Positions 18,330 through 54,635 of a DNA stretch of 64,000 bases are shown in pieces. The notes under the pieces were generated by a model. It searched no databases, was not told where the DNA came from, and saw only the letters and a list, made by a program, of their open reading frames with translations. The position numbers and the translations under genes are program-made. This DNA comes from Acidobacteriota bacterium. Lineage in GTDB: Bacteria > Acidobacteriota > Thermoanaerobaculia > Gp7-AA8. Location: the NCBI GenBank assembly GCA_016184115.1, contig JACPDH010000019.1, positions 1 to 64,000 of the forward strand. Direction: 5' to 3'. Positions within the stretch are counted from its first letter, which is position 1, and the number at the start of each line of letters is the position of its first letter.

Positions 18330-19118
18330 CTACACCCTCTTCGCCGCCTTCACCCGATCGAGCAGCTTCAGCCGAAGCCGCTCCGCCGCACTCGCTCCTG
18401 CAATCGAGATCTCGATCGTTCCGCGGGATCCGACGATCAGGAAAGGTTCGTTCGAGCCCGTCATCTCCGCGTAGCAATTCGCGCTCGCCTCGATGGTGAC
18501 GCCAGCAACCTCGAGCGTCACGCTATCGATGTCACCGAGTCTTGATGGGTCGAGATCGGTCGATACGTTGCCGTAGCGGTCGATCGCCGTGACCGAACCG
18601 TGCGCGCTCCGCTCGGCATACTCCGGAGCGTCGTACGGCAGCTTCACGATCGAGCCGCGCTCGACGCGTGCGCCGAGCTCCTCGATCCTCGTCCCCATCG
18701 CGAGCGCGGCGGCAACCGGCGCGAGCCGGTCGCGACCGTGAAACGTATGTACCCCGGTCTGAAGAAAGATCGTGTCGTTCGTGATCTCGCGCACGATGGC
18801 TCCGTCCGTGAGCGCGAGCGTGAGGAGTCCGTTGTCGGGACCGAGCAACGTGACGTTGTCGTCGACCGCGGCGAGCAGCCGGCGTGATGAACCGACCCCC
18901 GGGTCGACGACCGCGACGACGATGACCTGCCGCGCTCCTCGCAAGGAGCTAATGGCATCGCGGAGGAAGAAAGCCCCCTCGACGACGTCGAACGGCACGA
19001 TCTCATGCGTGAGGTCGAGCAGCTCCGCGTCGCACCGCGAGGCAATCACTCCCTTCACCTGCGCGACATATGGGTCACGAGTGCCGAAATCGCTCAGGAA
19101 GGCAATCAGCGCACGCAT
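18330..19118 (-). CDS. SAM hydroxide adenosyltransferase (DUF62) family protein
   Basis: A member of the SAM-dependent halogenase/hydroxide adenosyltransferase fold that usually hydrolyses S-adenosylmethionine to adenosine and methionine. The start MRALIAFLSDFGTRDPYVAQ contains the family FLSDFGxxDxYV motif. VDPGVGSSRR, GPDNGLL and TFHGRDRLAPVAA follow, and a C-terminal beta domain has AIDRYGNVSTDL. An ATG at 19301 would add 61 unrelated residues, whereas 19118 has GAGGGGG upstream and fits the family (262 aa). It is divergent from the DUF2064 gene. Confidence 0.9.
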   Translation of the reverse strand: MRALIAFLSDFGTRDPYVAQVKGVIASRCDAELLDLTHEIVPFDVVEGAFFLRDAISSLRGARQVIVVAVVDPGVGSSRRLLAAVDDNVTLLGPDNGLLTLALTDGAIVREITNDTIFLQTGVHTFHGRDRLAPVAAALAMGTRIEELGARVERGSIVKLPYDAPEYAERSAHGSVTAIDRYGNVSTDLDPSRLGDIDSVTLEVAGVTIEASANCYAEMTGSNEPFLIVGSRGTIEISIAGASAAERLRLKLLDRVKAAKRV

Positions 19119-28897: not shown

Positions 28898-29060
28898 GCG
28901 GGAAACGCGGAACGCGAAACGCGAAATGCGAAACGTGCAACGTGAAGTGCGGAACGCGGAACGTGAAACGCGGAACGTGAAGAGGCAACTGCGCGTCCGC
29001 TACCGCTCCGATATGGCGAAGCCGGAGAGGCGCGATTCTGCGGTTCCGCGTTCCGCGTTT

Positions 29061-38790: not shown

Positions 38791-38842
38791 CAGTGCTGAG
38801 TGCTGAGTGCTGAGTGCTGAGTGCTGAGTGCTGAGTGCTGAG
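38791..38842. repeat. Perfect heptad microsatellite (AGTGCTG)
   Basis: After the unit CAGTGCT, six identical GAGTGCT units follow (38798-38839) and a seventh decays. Unlike the other heptad arrays, it is essentially perfect, so it is recent or under active slippage. It lies 3 bases after the hypothetical gene's stop and 75 bases before the next heptad array. Confidence 0.9.
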
Positions 38843-38916
38843 AAGATCGGATCACACGACGCATCATCTGTCAGTGATCACGGCCTGATCGAACGTTTCT
38901 CGATTCACAATCCTGC

Positions 38917-39049
38917 GCGTTTCGCGTTCCGCGTTACGCATTCCGCATTCCGCATTCCGCGTTTCGCATTTCGCGCTCCGCATTCCGCGTTTCGCATTTC
39001 GCGTTCCGCATTCCGCATTCCGCGTTTCGCATTTCGAGTTCAGCGTTCT
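38917..39049. repeat. Seventeen-unit degenerate heptad array ending in a stop codon
   Basis: Seventeen consecutive 7-nt units of the type GCRTTYC (38917-39035) followed by two decayed units. It runs into the stop codon (39040-39042) of the membrane-protein gene on the minus strand. The unit is the complement of that at 28898, so the two loci share one repeat sequence. A 6-frame reading gives a low-complexity Phe-Arg-Ile peptide that is not a real protein. Confidence 0.88.
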
Positions 39050-50102: not shown

Positions 50103-51074
50103 ATGCGCCGTCCTTTCCTTCTCACTCTCGCTCTCATCGTGCTCGCATCGTGCCGAGGAGAGAGCGACCCGAACGTGATCACCGCGTCGGGCTACGTCGA
50201 GGCAACCGACGTCCGTCTCGCGACCAAAGTCGCAGGCCGCCTCGCTTCGGTGAACGTCGCCGAAGGCAACCGCGTTGCGAAAGGCGCGGTGGTCGCCACG
50301 ATCGAGACCGTTGATCTCGAGCTCGCCCTGCGCCAGGCGCAGGCAGAGCGCGAAGCCGCCGAAGCCGAGCTCCAGCTTCGTCTGAACGGCCCGCGCCCCG
50401 AGGACATCCGTGAAGCGGAAGCACAGCTCCGTTCGGCGGAGGCGGAGCTTGCGGGCGCCCAGCGCGATTTCGAGCGATTCGAGGCGCTCTTCGAGCGAGG
50501 CTCGGGTACGACGAAATCACGCGACGATGCGAAAACTCGCCGCGACACGCTCAAAGCGCGCGCCGACGCCATCTCGCAGTCGCTCGCACGCCTTCGTTCC
50601 GGCTTTCGAGCGGAGGAAATAGACGCCGCGAAGGGGCGACTCGCGTCGGTCGATGCCCGCATCACGCAACTAGAACAGCAGATTGCCGACGCGACGATCG
50701 TCTCCCCAGTCGATGGCATCGTGACTGAGAAGCTCGTCGAGGCAGGGGAGCTTCTTGCGCAGGGTGGCCCGATCGCCATCGTCACCGACGTCGGCGACGC
50801 GTGGCTCAACATTTACATCTCGGAGCCCGACCTGCCGCGCGTGAAACTCGGCATGCCCGCGGCCGTCGTCACCGACGACGGACAGACGCGCAATGGAACG
50901 CTCACCTACATCTCCTCGAAGGCGGAGTTCACGCCGAAGAACGTCCAGACGCGCGACGAGCGCGCAAAGCTCGTCTTCCGTCTCAAGGTCGGGCTCGAGA
51001 ACGCCGACATGCTCTTCAAGCCCGGCATGCCTGCCGAGGCGCGCATTACCGCGCCGCTCGGAGAAGGAAAGTGA
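50103..51074 (+). CDS. HlyD-family periplasmic adaptor lipoprotein (YbhG-like)
   Basis: A 323-residue membrane fusion protein linking an inner-membrane ABC exporter to TolC. The signal sequence TLALIVLASC ends in a lipobox, so it is probably a lipoprotein. A lipoyl-like half (SGYVEATDVRLATKVAGRLA) precedes a long coiled coil (about 75-195: AEREAAEAELQLRL and later AISQSLARLRSG), and the second half has ATIVSPVDGIVTEKLVEAGELL. One base separates it from the TetR stop, and its own stop overlaps the ATPase GTG. Confidence 0.92.
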   Translation: MRRPFLLTLALIVLASCRGESDPNVITASGYVEATDVRLATKVAGRLASVNVAEGNRVAKGAVVATIETVDLELALRQAQAEREAAEAELQLRLNGPRPEDIREAEAQLRSAEAELAGAQRDFERFEALFERGSGTTKSRDDAKTRRDTLKARADAISQSLARLRSGFRAEEIDAAKGRLASVDARITQLEQQIADATIVSPVDGIVTEKLVEAGELLAQGGPIAIVTDVGDAWLNIYISEPDLPRVKLGMPAAVVTDDGQTRNGTLTYISSKAEFTPKNVQTRDERAKLVFRLKVGLENADMLFKPGMPAEARITAPLGEGK

Positions 51075-52102
51075 GCGACCTGCCAGACAGGCCCGGAGCG
51101 CAGGCATCCTTGCCCAGAGGAGCAGAGGCTCCCAGCCGGCCGTCCCCCGGCGACTCCGTCGTGACGATCCGCGCCCTCGTCCGCCGCTTCGGCTCACTCA
51201 CGGCCGTCGACTCGATCGACGTCGACGTCCGTCGCGGCGAGATGTTCGGCCTCATCGGGCCCGATGGCGCCGGCAAGACGACGACGCTCCGCTGTGTGTT
51301 AGGCCTACTCCGTCCGGATGCGGGCGAAGTCCGCACGACAGGGCTCGACCCGGTCCGTCAGTCAGCCGAACTGTCGCGGCACGTCGGCTACCTCTCGCAG
51401 CGCTTCTCGCTCTACGGCGATCTTTCGGTCGACGAGAACATCGCGTTCTTCGCCGACGTGCACGGCGTGCGCGAATGGAAGCGCCGGCGAGATGGCTTGC
51501 TCGATCTCCTTCGGATGACACCGTTCCGCGACCGCCTCGCGGAACGCCTCTCCGGAGGAATGAAGCAAAAGCTCGCGCTCGCCTGCACGCTGATCCATAC
51601 CCCCGAGCTGCTCGTGCTCGACGAGCCGACGACCGGCGTCGACCCGGTCTCGCGCCGCGATTTCTGGAAGATCCTCGCGCAGCTGCAGCGCGAAGGGCTC
51701 ACGCTCCTTCTCACGACGCCTTACCTCGACGAAGCGGAACGGTGCGGTCGCGTCGCGCTGATGGATCACGGGCGCCTGCTCACGGTCGACGAGCCTGACG
51801 CGATTCGCGCCTCGGCTCCCGGCCTGCTACTCGAGGTCATCGCGTGGCCGAAGCGAACCGCCGCCGACTGGCTCCTCGCGGCGCCGCGCGTCGCTGGTGT
51901 TCAGACGTTCGGCGAGCGCCTTCACGTTTCCGTGCCCGACGCAGCGCCCGCCGGCGGCGCGGCGATTGCGGCCGAGCTTCACGACGGGCTCGCCTCCGCG
52001 GGGCTGACCGTTACGTCCGTCCGTCCGATCGTTCCAACGCTCGAGGACGTCTTCATCGCGCGCGTGCAGTCGGGCGCCAGCGCGAACAGGGAGGTTGCAT
52101 GA
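51071..52102 (+). CDS. ABC transporter ATPase 1 (YbhF N-half-like)
   Basis: A 343-residue nucleotide-binding subunit starting at GTG inside the previous stop (GTGA). A 33-residue hydrophilic leader precedes VVTIRALVRRFGSL. Walker A is GPDGAGKTTTL, the signature is LSGGMKQKLALA, and Walker B is LLVLDEPTTGVDP, followed by the switch region TTPYLDEAERC. In E. coli the YbhF ATPase is a tandem fusion; here the two ATPases are separate genes with the tolC-like gene between. It powers drug or metabolite export with the permeases at 54632 and 55761. Confidence 0.93.
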   Translation: MSDLPDRPGAQASLPRGAEAPSRPSPGDSVVTIRALVRRFGSLTAVDSIDVDVRRGEMFGLIGPDGAGKTTTLRCVLGLLRPDAGEVRTTGLDPVRQSAELSRHVGYLSQRFSLYGDLSVDENIAFFADVHGVREWKRRRDGLLDLLRMTPFRDRLAERLSGGMKQKLALACTLIHTPELLVLDEPTTGVDPVSRRDFWKILAQLQREGLTLLLTTPYLDEAERCGRVALMDHGRLLTVDEPDAIRASAPGLLLEVIAWPKRTAADWLLAAPRVAGVQTFGERLHVSVPDAAPAGGAAIAAELHDGLASAGLTVTSVRPIVPTLEDVFIARVQSGASANREVA

Positions 52103-53691
52103 CACCGAACAACACCGTTTCGACTCACGGCGAATGCTCGAGCGTGTCGTCCCGAGCGCAGCGAGGGACCTCGCAGGTTGGTATGAGCGAGGTTCAGCGC
52201 CTGGGCGATTCGCGCATGTTGCTCGCGGGTCCCTGCCTGAGAGGTCCTTCCTCCCTCGCGGCGCTTCGCCCGGCTCGGTCGTCAGGACGACGACACGCCG
52301 AACCTCTGAAGCCCACCGCACCACCCTCGCACCCCGCGCCTCCTCTGGCCTTTGGCCCCTCGCCTCTGGTCCGCCTTTCGCCATTCGCCTCTCGCCTCGC
52401 TGGCCTCGTGCTCCTCGCGTTCTTCGCCTTGCCGTCCGGCGCCGAGGAGCGCACGATGACGCTTGGCGAAGTCGTCGAGCGCGCGCGCAGCGTCTCGCCG
52501 CACGTCGCTCGCCTTCGCCTGCTCGAGGAGGCGGCCCGCGAAGGGGAGCAGATCGCCGCCTCTGGCCGCATGCCGCAGATCGAGATCTCCGCGGCGTACT
52601 CGCGCAACTCAGACGTTCCCGAGTTCGCCACCGGAATCGGGCCGGCGCGGACGGTCATCTTCCCCAACATCCCCGACAACTACCGCGCGCGCGCCGCAGC
52701 GAGCCTGCCGCTCTACACGGGAGGGCGCCTTTCGTCGCAGATTGACGTTGCGCGCTACGGCACCGCCGCCGCGACTGACGACGCGGTCGCGGGGGAGCGT
52801 GATCTCGTGCTGGAAGCGTCCACCGCCTACTGGAGTCTCGTTACGGCGCGAGAGAACGAGCGCGTACTCACCGCCGCGCTCGACGCATTCGAACAACACC
52901 TCGTCGATGCGCGGAATCGCTTCGATCTCGGCCTCGCCGCGCGCAACGAGTTGCTCGCCGTACAGGCAGAGCGCGATCGGGCCGAGTTGCAGCGCGTCCG
53001 GGCAGAGAACAACGCCGCGGTCGCGCACGCAAACCTTCTTCGCATTCTCGATCTCGGACCTGACCTCTTCATCGTCACCGCCGACGGCCTCGCTGCTGCG
53101 GCTGTTCCCATCGGCGACCTCGAGGCACTCGTTGATGAGGCAGAGGCGTCGCGCGCCGAGCTTCGGTCGCTCTCCGCGCGCGTCGACGCGGCCGATGCGT
53201 ACGCCCGGGCTGCGCGCGCCTCGCGCCTGCCGCAGGCATCGCTGAGCGCAGCGTACGACTATGCGAGTCCGAACCAGAAGATCCTGCCACTCACCGATTC
53301 GTGGGAGGACACCTGGAGCGTTGGAGTCGGCGTGAGCTGGACTCTCTTCGACGGTGGCCGAACGGCGGCGTCAGAAGCGAAGGCGCGCGCCGAAGCCGAG
53401 TCGCTTCGCCGGCTCGCCGACGACGCGCGGCAGCGCGTTCGGCTCGAGGTGACAGGCCGCGCTCTCGAGCTCGACGCGGCGATCGCCGCCGTCGCGGTGT
53501 CGAAGCGTGGACTCGAGGCTGCCGCGGAGAACGAGCGCGTCTCGCGCGACCGCTATCGCGAAGGCGTCGCCTCGTCATCCGACCTGCTCGACGCGGAGAC
53601 GCAGACGCTTCGCGCGGGACTCGACCTCGTAGCCGCGCAGAGCTCCCTGCGTACCGCCGAAGCGCAACTGGCGAGGGCGCTCGGGCGATGA
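52099..53691 (+). CDS. TolC-like outer membrane efflux protein with aberrant N-terminus
   Basis: A 530-residue frame, coupled at ATGA to the ATPase. The mature part begins near EERTMTLGEVVERARS and contains the two TolC-type halves (LVTARENERVLTAALDAFEQ, NRFDLGLAARNELL, RASRLPQASLSAAYDYAS, YREGVASSSDLLDAE). The signal sequence RLAGLVLLAFFALPSGAEE starts only about 97 residues into the frame. The first 96 residues are encoded by a palindromic REP-like repeat (52146-52291) and a 7-nt array (52342-52400). It opens outward through the outer membrane for this exporter. The start codon used in vivo is uncertain. Confidence 0.85.
   Translation: MTPNNTVSTHGECSSVSSRAQRGTSQVGMSEVQRLGDSRMLLAGPCLRGPSSLAALRPARSSGRRHAEPLKPTAPPSHPAPPLAFGPSPLVRLSPFASRLAGLVLLAFFALPSGAEERTMTLGEVVERARSVSPHVARLRLLEEAAREGEQIAASGRMPQIEISAAYSRNSDVPEFATGIGPARTVIFPNIPDNYRARAAASLPLYTGGRLSSQIDVARYGTAAATDDAVAGERDLVLEASTAYWSLVTARENERVLTAALDAFEQHLVDARNRFDLGLAARNELLAVQAERDRAELQRVRAENNAAVAHANLLRILDLGPDLFIVTADGLAAAAVPIGDLEALVDEAEASRAELRSLSARVDAADAYARAARASRLPQASLSAAYDYASPNQKILPLTDSWEDTWSVGVGVSWTLFDGGRTAASEAKARAEAESLRRLADDARQRVRLEVTGRALELDAAIAAVAVSKRGLEAAAENERVSRDRYREGVASSSDLLDAETQTLRAGLDLVAAQSSLRTAEAQLARALGR
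52146..52291. repeat. Palindromic REP-like repeat, copy 2, inside the tolC-like frame
   Basis: The arms GTCGTCCCGAG and CGCAGCGAGGGACCTCGCAGG are matched in part by a complementary half ending GGCTCGGTCGTCAGGACGAC. The same family as 23423-23582. The insertion does not break the reading frame, so it lengthens the protein by about 50 residues ahead of the signal sequence. Its presence between coupled genes is unexpected. Confidence 0.72.
52342..52400. repeat. Heptad array coding just before the signal sequence
   Basis: About eight 7-nt units of the CCTCTGG/TTCGCCT type, reading through all three frames of the tolC-like gene. It ends within the signal sequence. This is the only heptad array in the window that is clearly within a reading frame. 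Confidence 0.6.
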
Positions 53692-54635
53692 ACGAGTCAG
53701 TGATCGTAGTGCAAGGTCTCGTCAAGCGTTTCGGCGAGTTCATCTCGGTCGATGACGTCAGTTTCGACGTTCGCGAAGGCGAGGTGTTCGGACTGTTAGG
53801 CAGTAATGGAGCCGGAAAGACGACGACGATCCGCATGCTCTGCGGCCTACTCCGGCCGACGAGCGGAAGCGCGCAGATCCTCGGCATCGACGCCGCGCGC
53901 GAACCCGAACGCCTCAAACGAAGCATCGGTTACATGACGCAGCGATTCAGCCTCTACGACGACCTCACCGTCGGACAGAACCTGCGCTTCTTCGGCGGCG
54001 TCTACGGCCTGCGGGGCCGCGCCTTCGACGAGCGTCGCGCATGGGCGCTCGAGACCGCGGGGCTCGAGGGGAAAGAGAATCTGTTGACCTCGTCGCTTCC
54101 CGGTGGCTGGAAGCAGCGACTCGCGCTCGCCTGCGCGCTGCTGCACGAGCCGCGCGTCGTCTTCCTCGACGAACCGACCGGGGGAGTCGACCCCGTCTCG
54201 CGCCGCGCGTTCTGGCAACTCATCGATTCGCTCGCCGCGGCCGGCGTCACGCTCATCGTCACGACGCACTATCTCGACGAAGCGGAGCGTTGCGACCGCA
54301 TCGCCCTGATGCACGGAGGACGCATCGTCGCGATGGGGAACGTCGCGGAGCTGAAGGAGGTCTTCTCGGGACGAGCGATGCTCGAGGTGAGCTGTCCTCG
54401 CGTTCTCGACGCACAGACGCGCCTCGAAGACGAACAGGGCATCCTCGAGGTCTCGGCCTTCGGCACGACTCTTCATGTCGTCGTGGAGGACGCTGGCGCG
54501 GGGAGTGCGACGATCGCGCGCAGCCTCTCGGCCAACGGCTTCGACCCGCACCAGATCGAGCGAATCGTGCCATCCCTCGAGGACGTCTTCATCCATTGCA
54601 TCGAGTCGGAGGAAGCGCAGAGGAGCGCGTCATGA
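53688..54635 (+). CDS. ABC transporter ATPase 2 (YbhF C-half-like)
   Basis: A 315-residue ATPase with Walker A GSNGAGKTTTI, a signature that reads LPGGWKQRLALA (normally LSGGQ), Walker B VVFLDEPTGGVDP and switch THYLDEAERC. The ATG overlaps the TolC stop by 4 bases. It pairs with ATPase 1 (51071), most likely forming a heterodimeric NBD. The Pro-Gly-Gly-Trp signature may reduce or tune one of the two ATP sites. Confidence 0.93.
   Translation: MNESVIVVQGLVKRFGEFISVDDVSFDVREGEVFGLLGSNGAGKTTTIRMLCGLLRPTSGSAQILGIDAAREPERLKRSIGYMTQRFSLYDDLTVGQNLRFFGGVYGLRGRAFDERRAWALETAGLEGKENLLTSSLPGGWKQRLALACALLHEPRVVFLDEPTGGVDPVSRRAFWQLIDSLAAAGVTLIVTTHYLDEAERCDRIALMHGGRIVAMGNVAELKEVFSGRAMLEVSCPRVLDAQTRLEDEQGILEVSAFGTTLHVVVEDAGAGSATIARSLSANGFDPHQIERIVPSLEDVFIHCIESEEAQRSAS

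Follow-up and report, generated by a model that had tools for sequence, protein, structure and literature searches.

In the 64,000-nucleotide stretch of Acidobacteriota DNA analysed here (the window; contig 83 of a 4.4-Mb metagenome-assembled genome labelled G000), a dispersed palindromic repeat and a heptamer array appear to lie in frame in the signal-peptide n-region of a coupled OEP/TolC gene, the translation of which would still begin at its coupled start, ATG 52099. We give this reading, which is drawn from the sequence, a probability of about 0.72. The gene is the fourth in an operon ordered TetR, HlyD, ABC ATPase, OEP/TolC, ABC ATPase and two ABC-2 permeases, and the features around its start are as follows.

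51071 to 52102, plus strand: upstream ABC ATPase gene (PF00005), with a GTGA-coupled start at 51071.
52088 to 52094, plus strand: Shine-Dalgarno (SD) sequence AGGGAGG serving the coupled start, with a stronger duplex (-11.5 kcal/mol) than at any other in-frame start.
52099 to 52102, plus strand: ATGA overlap of the TolC/OEP start with the ABC ATPase stop, read from the sequence.
52099 to 52145, plus strand: residual original N-terminus (MTPN...), its first codons common to the MTPN...THA of a sibling genome.
52146 to 52291, plus strand: dispersed palindromic (REP/MITE-like) repeat with the in-frame reading SSRAQRGTSQ..., recognized from genomic matches, its DNA fold and the use of the same frame in a P-type ATPase.
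52342 to 52398 (about), plus strand: degenerate heptamer array of the CCTCTGG/CCTTTCG type, coding for the end of the n-region (SPLVRLSPFASR) and found by TRF and lag-7 score.
52396 to 52443, plus strand: signal-peptide h/c-region LAGLVLLAFFALPSGA, with predicted cleavage before EERTMTL; it is the top hydrophobicity window and matches the sibling's LIGIGMLSVLAFPAAA followed by QE.
52444 to 53691, plus strand: mature OEP/TolC-family outer membrane channel protein (PF02321, E = 1.8e-60), 69-70% identical to that of the sibling.
53688 to 54635, plus strand: downstream ABC ATPase gene, ATGA-coupled.

The original prediction held that ATG 52099 overlaps the previous stop, and it does so in an ATGA whose TGA occupies 52100-52102, with a GGAGG at 52090-52094, four bases 5' of the ATG. 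The accompanying statement that the other genes of the operon are joined in the same way stands for the TolC/ABC2 (53688) and ABC2/permease (54632) junctions but not for HlyD/ABC1, which is GTGA (51071), or for the last two genes, which are one base apart. As a separate observation, ~28 extra residues rich in Pro and Ala extend the N-terminus of the upstream ABC ATPase (51071-51160), with a palindrome-like GCGCAGGCATCCTTGCC among them; the corresponding extension in the sibling can be aligned to this one yet is different. Repeat incorporation may have taken place here too, at an earlier date.

From 52099 the frame is open to 53691, 530 amino acids without a stop, through both the palindrome and the heptamer array. 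Taken alone this counts for little: a stop is likewise absent from 29% of dinucleotide-shuffled leaders. The protein is most strongly hydrophobic at residues 100-113, in agreement with the claim that the signal sequence of a TolC homologue begins nearly 100 codons after the start, and the assignment to that family is equally well founded in the PF02321 match. The ~99 residues ahead of the core are arginine-rich, with 12 R/K versus 4 D/E, and the pattern is that of a Sec signal peptide, with a basic n-region, a hydrophobic core from residue 100 and, before EE, a predicted cleavage site assigned from the S-G-A motif alone. What departs from the pattern is length, as the predicted signal peptide counted from ATG 52099 would be ~115 residues long and the usual range is ~20-40.

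The palindrome claimed at 52146-52291 is indeed there and in frame: it is an imperfect palindrome of 146 nt, GTCGTCCCGAG...TCAGGACGAC, with a DNA fold more stable than that of any of 200 shuffles (z = -3.5). It is also dispersed, with 19 matches to the whole or parts of it in the G000 genome, its own copy counted; genome-wide statistics for G000 are based on extracted stretches. Two-armed copies of 111-159 nt share GTC(A/G)TCCCGA...GGGANCTC(T/G)CAGG(C/T)TGGTA... and its mirror image, and the copies inspected are mostly intergenic, some with flanking heptamer arrays resembling that of the window. An exact-seed repeat finder run on the window did not report the palindrome, because its arms are imperfect, and an Rfam search of the window gave no matches. 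By size and sequence the family is not that of the tagged REPs, which are palindromes of 20-40 bp with an unpaired GTAG/CGTC: here the units begin GTC(A/G)TCCCGA, and a CGTC string near the end of many copies does not define a 20-40 bp tagged unit. Nor did we find an association with RAYTs, as no repeat copy lay beside a Y1 transposase gene at the eight loci inspected in G000 and the sibling genome, each of which has eight Y1_Tnp matches. The properties are instead those of the palindromic elements of Rickettsia (RPE), namely a multicopy palindrome of ~100-150 bp with in-frame, stop-free insertions in known gene families (the TolC leader and a P-type ATPase).

The 7-nt array placed by the original prediction between palindrome and signal is real, if degenerate: TRF gives it a score of 37 with 67% matches, and its lag-7 self-match score of 18 (shuffle mean 5) is higher than in all 1000 dinucleotide shuffles. 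It is STRR-like by unit length and tandem layout alone. Similar arrays occur elsewhere within the window. Between predicted genes, a perfect AGTGCTG array of 7.3 units (38792-38842) is followed by a 133-nt degenerate CGCATTC-type array (38916-39048), and a single gap between two minus-strand genes holds a GAAACGC array (28902-28981) and one of the reverse-complement type, GTTCCGC (29043-29059). The length of perfect 7-nt arrays is prone to change and could differ among strains.

Comparison of the ABC/TolC junction in 20 orthologous operons, from metagenome and draft assemblies, argues for an insertion. The ATGA is present in 19 of the 20 and a GGAGG or close purine-rich site in nearly all. A short, ordinary n-region stands right behind the coupled ATG in 11, so that this is probably the ancestral form, and the other nine n-regions are extended. 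The long leader is not conserved as such, since the orthologues have either the short n-region or a different extension, several with a different repeat, and the proposal that repeats were inserted between the coupled start and the signal is thereby supported. Four of the nine extensions match dispersed repeats of their own genome: those of G000, the sibling G001, G135 (heptads and a second dispersed repeat) and G020 (a palindrome core with 11 other matches in its genome). A 38-residue leader in G046 looks heptad-like; it has no other match in its genome, and we rejected it as repeat-derived. Repeat matching covered these five genomes; the other extended n-regions are those of G028, G058 and the related pair G137/G138.

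The closest comparison is with G001, a sibling from the same genus (contig JAMPYE010000293.1) in which the ABC protein is 85% and TolC 69% identical. Its TolC begins with the same MTPN codons and has, at the same place and in frame, a palindrome of a different family (fold z -8.2). Within three mismatches this palindrome has 245 matches in G001 and a single, three-mismatch match in G000; the reversed control gave 0. Thus the two sibling species have repeats of different families at positions only a few codons apart, and each is in frame. For the G001 leader 49% of shuffles are stop-free, and with 29% for G000 and a one-in-three chance of frame the probability of both being in frame is ~0.016 if they are independent, a figure judged post hoc. 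A pattern search for SD, ATG and palindrome in 148 genomes of the class returned two matches only, both in G001, and in neither does the frame opened by that ATG continue into a gene. Contigs of G001 (e.g. C15, C30, C146 and C458) often end less than 100 bases from the GGCGCAGGCACTCC palindrome, which probably breaks assemblies, its own copy number then being underestimated.

The same incorporation is seen in other, unrelated genes. With a simple gene caller based on codon bias we examined the stretches around 86 distinct palindrome sites in G001, skipping sites close to contig ends, and by these heuristic calls nearly all are intergenic and five are in frame in genes, four of the five in signal n-regions. 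Besides TolC these are C45, an ATGA-coupled F5/8 type C protein with the palindrome between start and signal core and then LLFIALLCCVAPLRA; C488 (L157, contig 488), a periplasmic binding protein (PF01497) with a cobalamin riboswitch (RF00174) directly upstream, an AGGAGG before its ATG (SD -11.0) and an n-region made of palindrome and TTCTCAA heptads, then ALLLTLALLAVPAAAA; and C612 (SD -11.5), in which a lipoprotein-like LFAVSC signal follows the palindrome. The fifth, C462 (L152, contig 462), codes for a protein with ferredoxin-type domains and has a complete two-armed palindrome in frame at mid-gene. The chance of at least four n-regions in five is ~0.016 if a quarter of genes are exported, or ~0.05 for at least three in four when TolC is left out, and this excess, assessed post hoc, is suggestive only. 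In G000 the window's own family is found in frame within a P-type ATPase (L007; contig 95, about 18700-18850; PF00122/PF00702), where it reads SSRAQRGTSHAR... in the same frame as in the TolC leader; alignments with two family-level homologues, from two other genomes, skip 73-86 query residues at the repeat versus ~19-23 in the homologues. Seven other in-gene motif matches in G000 and G001 (L003, L005, L071, L095, L097, L099 and L180) were regarded as coincidental or called on the wrong strand and left out of the count, L143 and L140 were rejected as in-frame cases for having usable downstream starts, and L172 was kept out of the in-gene count. The presence of similar leaders in genes for other exported proteins and in TolC orthologues speaks against the suggestion that a repeat-derived leader would block a normal signal peptide.

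It might be argued that the repeat is functionally extragenic and the upstream frame an accident, with TolC starting either within the repeat (ATG 52183 or 52216) or beyond it, at GTG 52408 or at some non-canonical codon of the heptad array. Di Nocera et al. 2013 (PMC3733652) judge that, across several species, most annotated N-terminal REPs probably do not code, and G+C-rich repeats are often stop-free. When the in-frame ATG, GTG and TTG codons ahead of the signal are scored against the anti-SD, ATG 52099 stands at -11.5 kcal/mol and every other one at -3.5 or weaker. GTG 52408, the only in-frame start after the repeat and before a usable part of the signal, sits in the hydrophobic core, leaves no n-region and has an SD of -1.5 kcal/mol; starts at ATG 52183 or 52216, within the repeat, would still leave a leader of 60-70 residues. 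ATG 52456 has a fair SD (-7.9), but a start there would yield a protein without any signal, and in the orthologues the matching position is an ordinary residue (RLTL, RLTP). The combination of a strong SD at the upstream ATG with no good start after the repeat recurs in the TolC of G001, C488, C612, G135 and G020; C45 is a weaker case, with -7.1 versus -6.4 at an internal TTG. As no internal start gives a proper signal peptide, the coupled ATG is most likely the start in use. The non-coupled internal start that had been offered as one possibility finds no support, and we regard an extragenic repeat as unlikely.

In the model we favour, the repeat with its adjoining heptamer array would have been incorporated in frame between the coupled start and the hydrophobic core, with translation still beginning at ATG 52099. 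The ~99-residue leader would serve as an unusually long n-region, remaining cytoplasmic as the hydrophobic segment engages Sec; cleavage by signal peptidase after A115 would then remove leader and signal together. The start-to-core stretch is the one place for extra sequence because there is no intergenic space at the overlap, and an insert there would spare the SD spacing and coupling, the export signal and the mature protein. We infer translation from 52099, export, cleavage and fitness neutrality from sequence features. The palindromic elements of G001 have no stop in ~77% of frames, whereas shuffled copies have none in 47%; the net charge of an open frame is ~+5 to +8, versus +4.5 in shuffled open frames. 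Because they are mostly stop-free and positively charged, an insert usually reads through and is basic in any frame. The charged residues adjacent to the core come from the repeat in the G001 TolC, C45 and C612 and from the heptamer array in the window.

It is tempting to go further and propose that in compact operons the signal n-region offers small palindromic repeats a recurrent safe site, at which different families have landed repeatedly and produced leaders of up to ~100 residues, a generalization for which we would put the odds at about even. The n-region would be little constrained, and G+C-rich palindromes, usually stop-free and arginine-rich in every frame, would supply the positive charge that it needs.

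A hairpin might instead have been kept as a regulator, an mRNA structure near the TolC start that tunes TolC translation or affects how stable the upstream mRNA is, a role suggested for intercistronic REPs. The strength of the palindrome would fit such a role, as would the occurrence of repeats in the leaders of four different lineages at this junction. However, as RNA, 52080-52330 folds no more stably than shuffled sequence does (z -0.57), on which ground a conserved RNA-level structure was rejected as the signal, and with unrelated repeats in the relatives and none in 11 of the 20 orthologues no specific structure is conserved; regulation is, in our estimate, quite improbable. That the insertion is a recent lesion, leaving TolC mis-targeted or poorly exported and on its way to a pseudogene, is the least probable of all. 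The great length of the leader would fit it, and other TolC-family homologues in the genome (seven matches) could compensate, but the downstream 411 residues are intact at 69-70% identity to the sibling, the signal core and cleavage motif are kept, the downstream coupled genes are intact and four lineages retain such leaders in frame.

If the leader is translated as we propose, the n-region would be a predictable, low-cost place for mobile repeats to enter coding sequence, and some oddly long signal peptides would have an explanation. Automatic start calls in repeat-rich Acidobacteriota may then wrongly trim or extend exported proteins, and such genes would provide natural material for testing the maximal length of a bacterial n-region.

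The in-frame incorporation of palindromic repeats is itself already established, for RPE in Rickettsia, intragenic REPs, ERIC and YPAL (PMC2229807, PMC3733652, PMC2759123, PMC10969869); a limited search of the open-access literature found no account in which n-regions at start-stop overlaps are described as receiving repeats recurrently. The Rickettsia and Wolbachia palindromic elements are dispersed, ~105-150 bp long, and both intergenic and in frame in protein genes (Delihas 2008, PMC2229807; review PMC10969869), and N-termini decorated with RPE-1 are cited as expressed in R. conorii (PMC3733652). The repeats described here resemble them in palindrome size, in dispersal and in having intergenic and in-frame copies, a likeness in mode of insertion and not a claim of membership in the RPE family. 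The host is unrelated, the sibling's palindrome has no fixed reading frame from gene to gene and so gives no single conserved peptide, and four of its five coding cases are signal-peptide n-regions. REPs are mainly intergenic palindromes, some of them in ORFs and many of those N-terminal, and parallel insertion has a precedent in recB, where different REPs occupy nearly the same site in two Xanthomonas species (PMC3733652); with 111-159 nt against 20-40 bp and a tag, and no copies beside the Y1 loci inspected, the window's repeat is of another kind. Closer in position is YPAL (RU-2), which contributes to the signal peptide predicted for YPO1552 (Delihas 2007, PMC2759123) and, like ERIC (RU-1), is a small MITE-like mobile repeat. 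RU-2 has been proposed to help create a new exported protein, whereas in the window the signal core appears ancestral and the repeat would lengthen the n-region only; insertion of the window's type is, moreover, at a start-stop overlap and is repeated across orthologues. Finally, the ESPR-type signal peptides of autotransporters also place a positively charged N-terminal extension before an ordinary signal (PMC2805444), but theirs is conserved and ~25 residues long, and the window's leader is repeat-derived, 99 residues long and unconserved.
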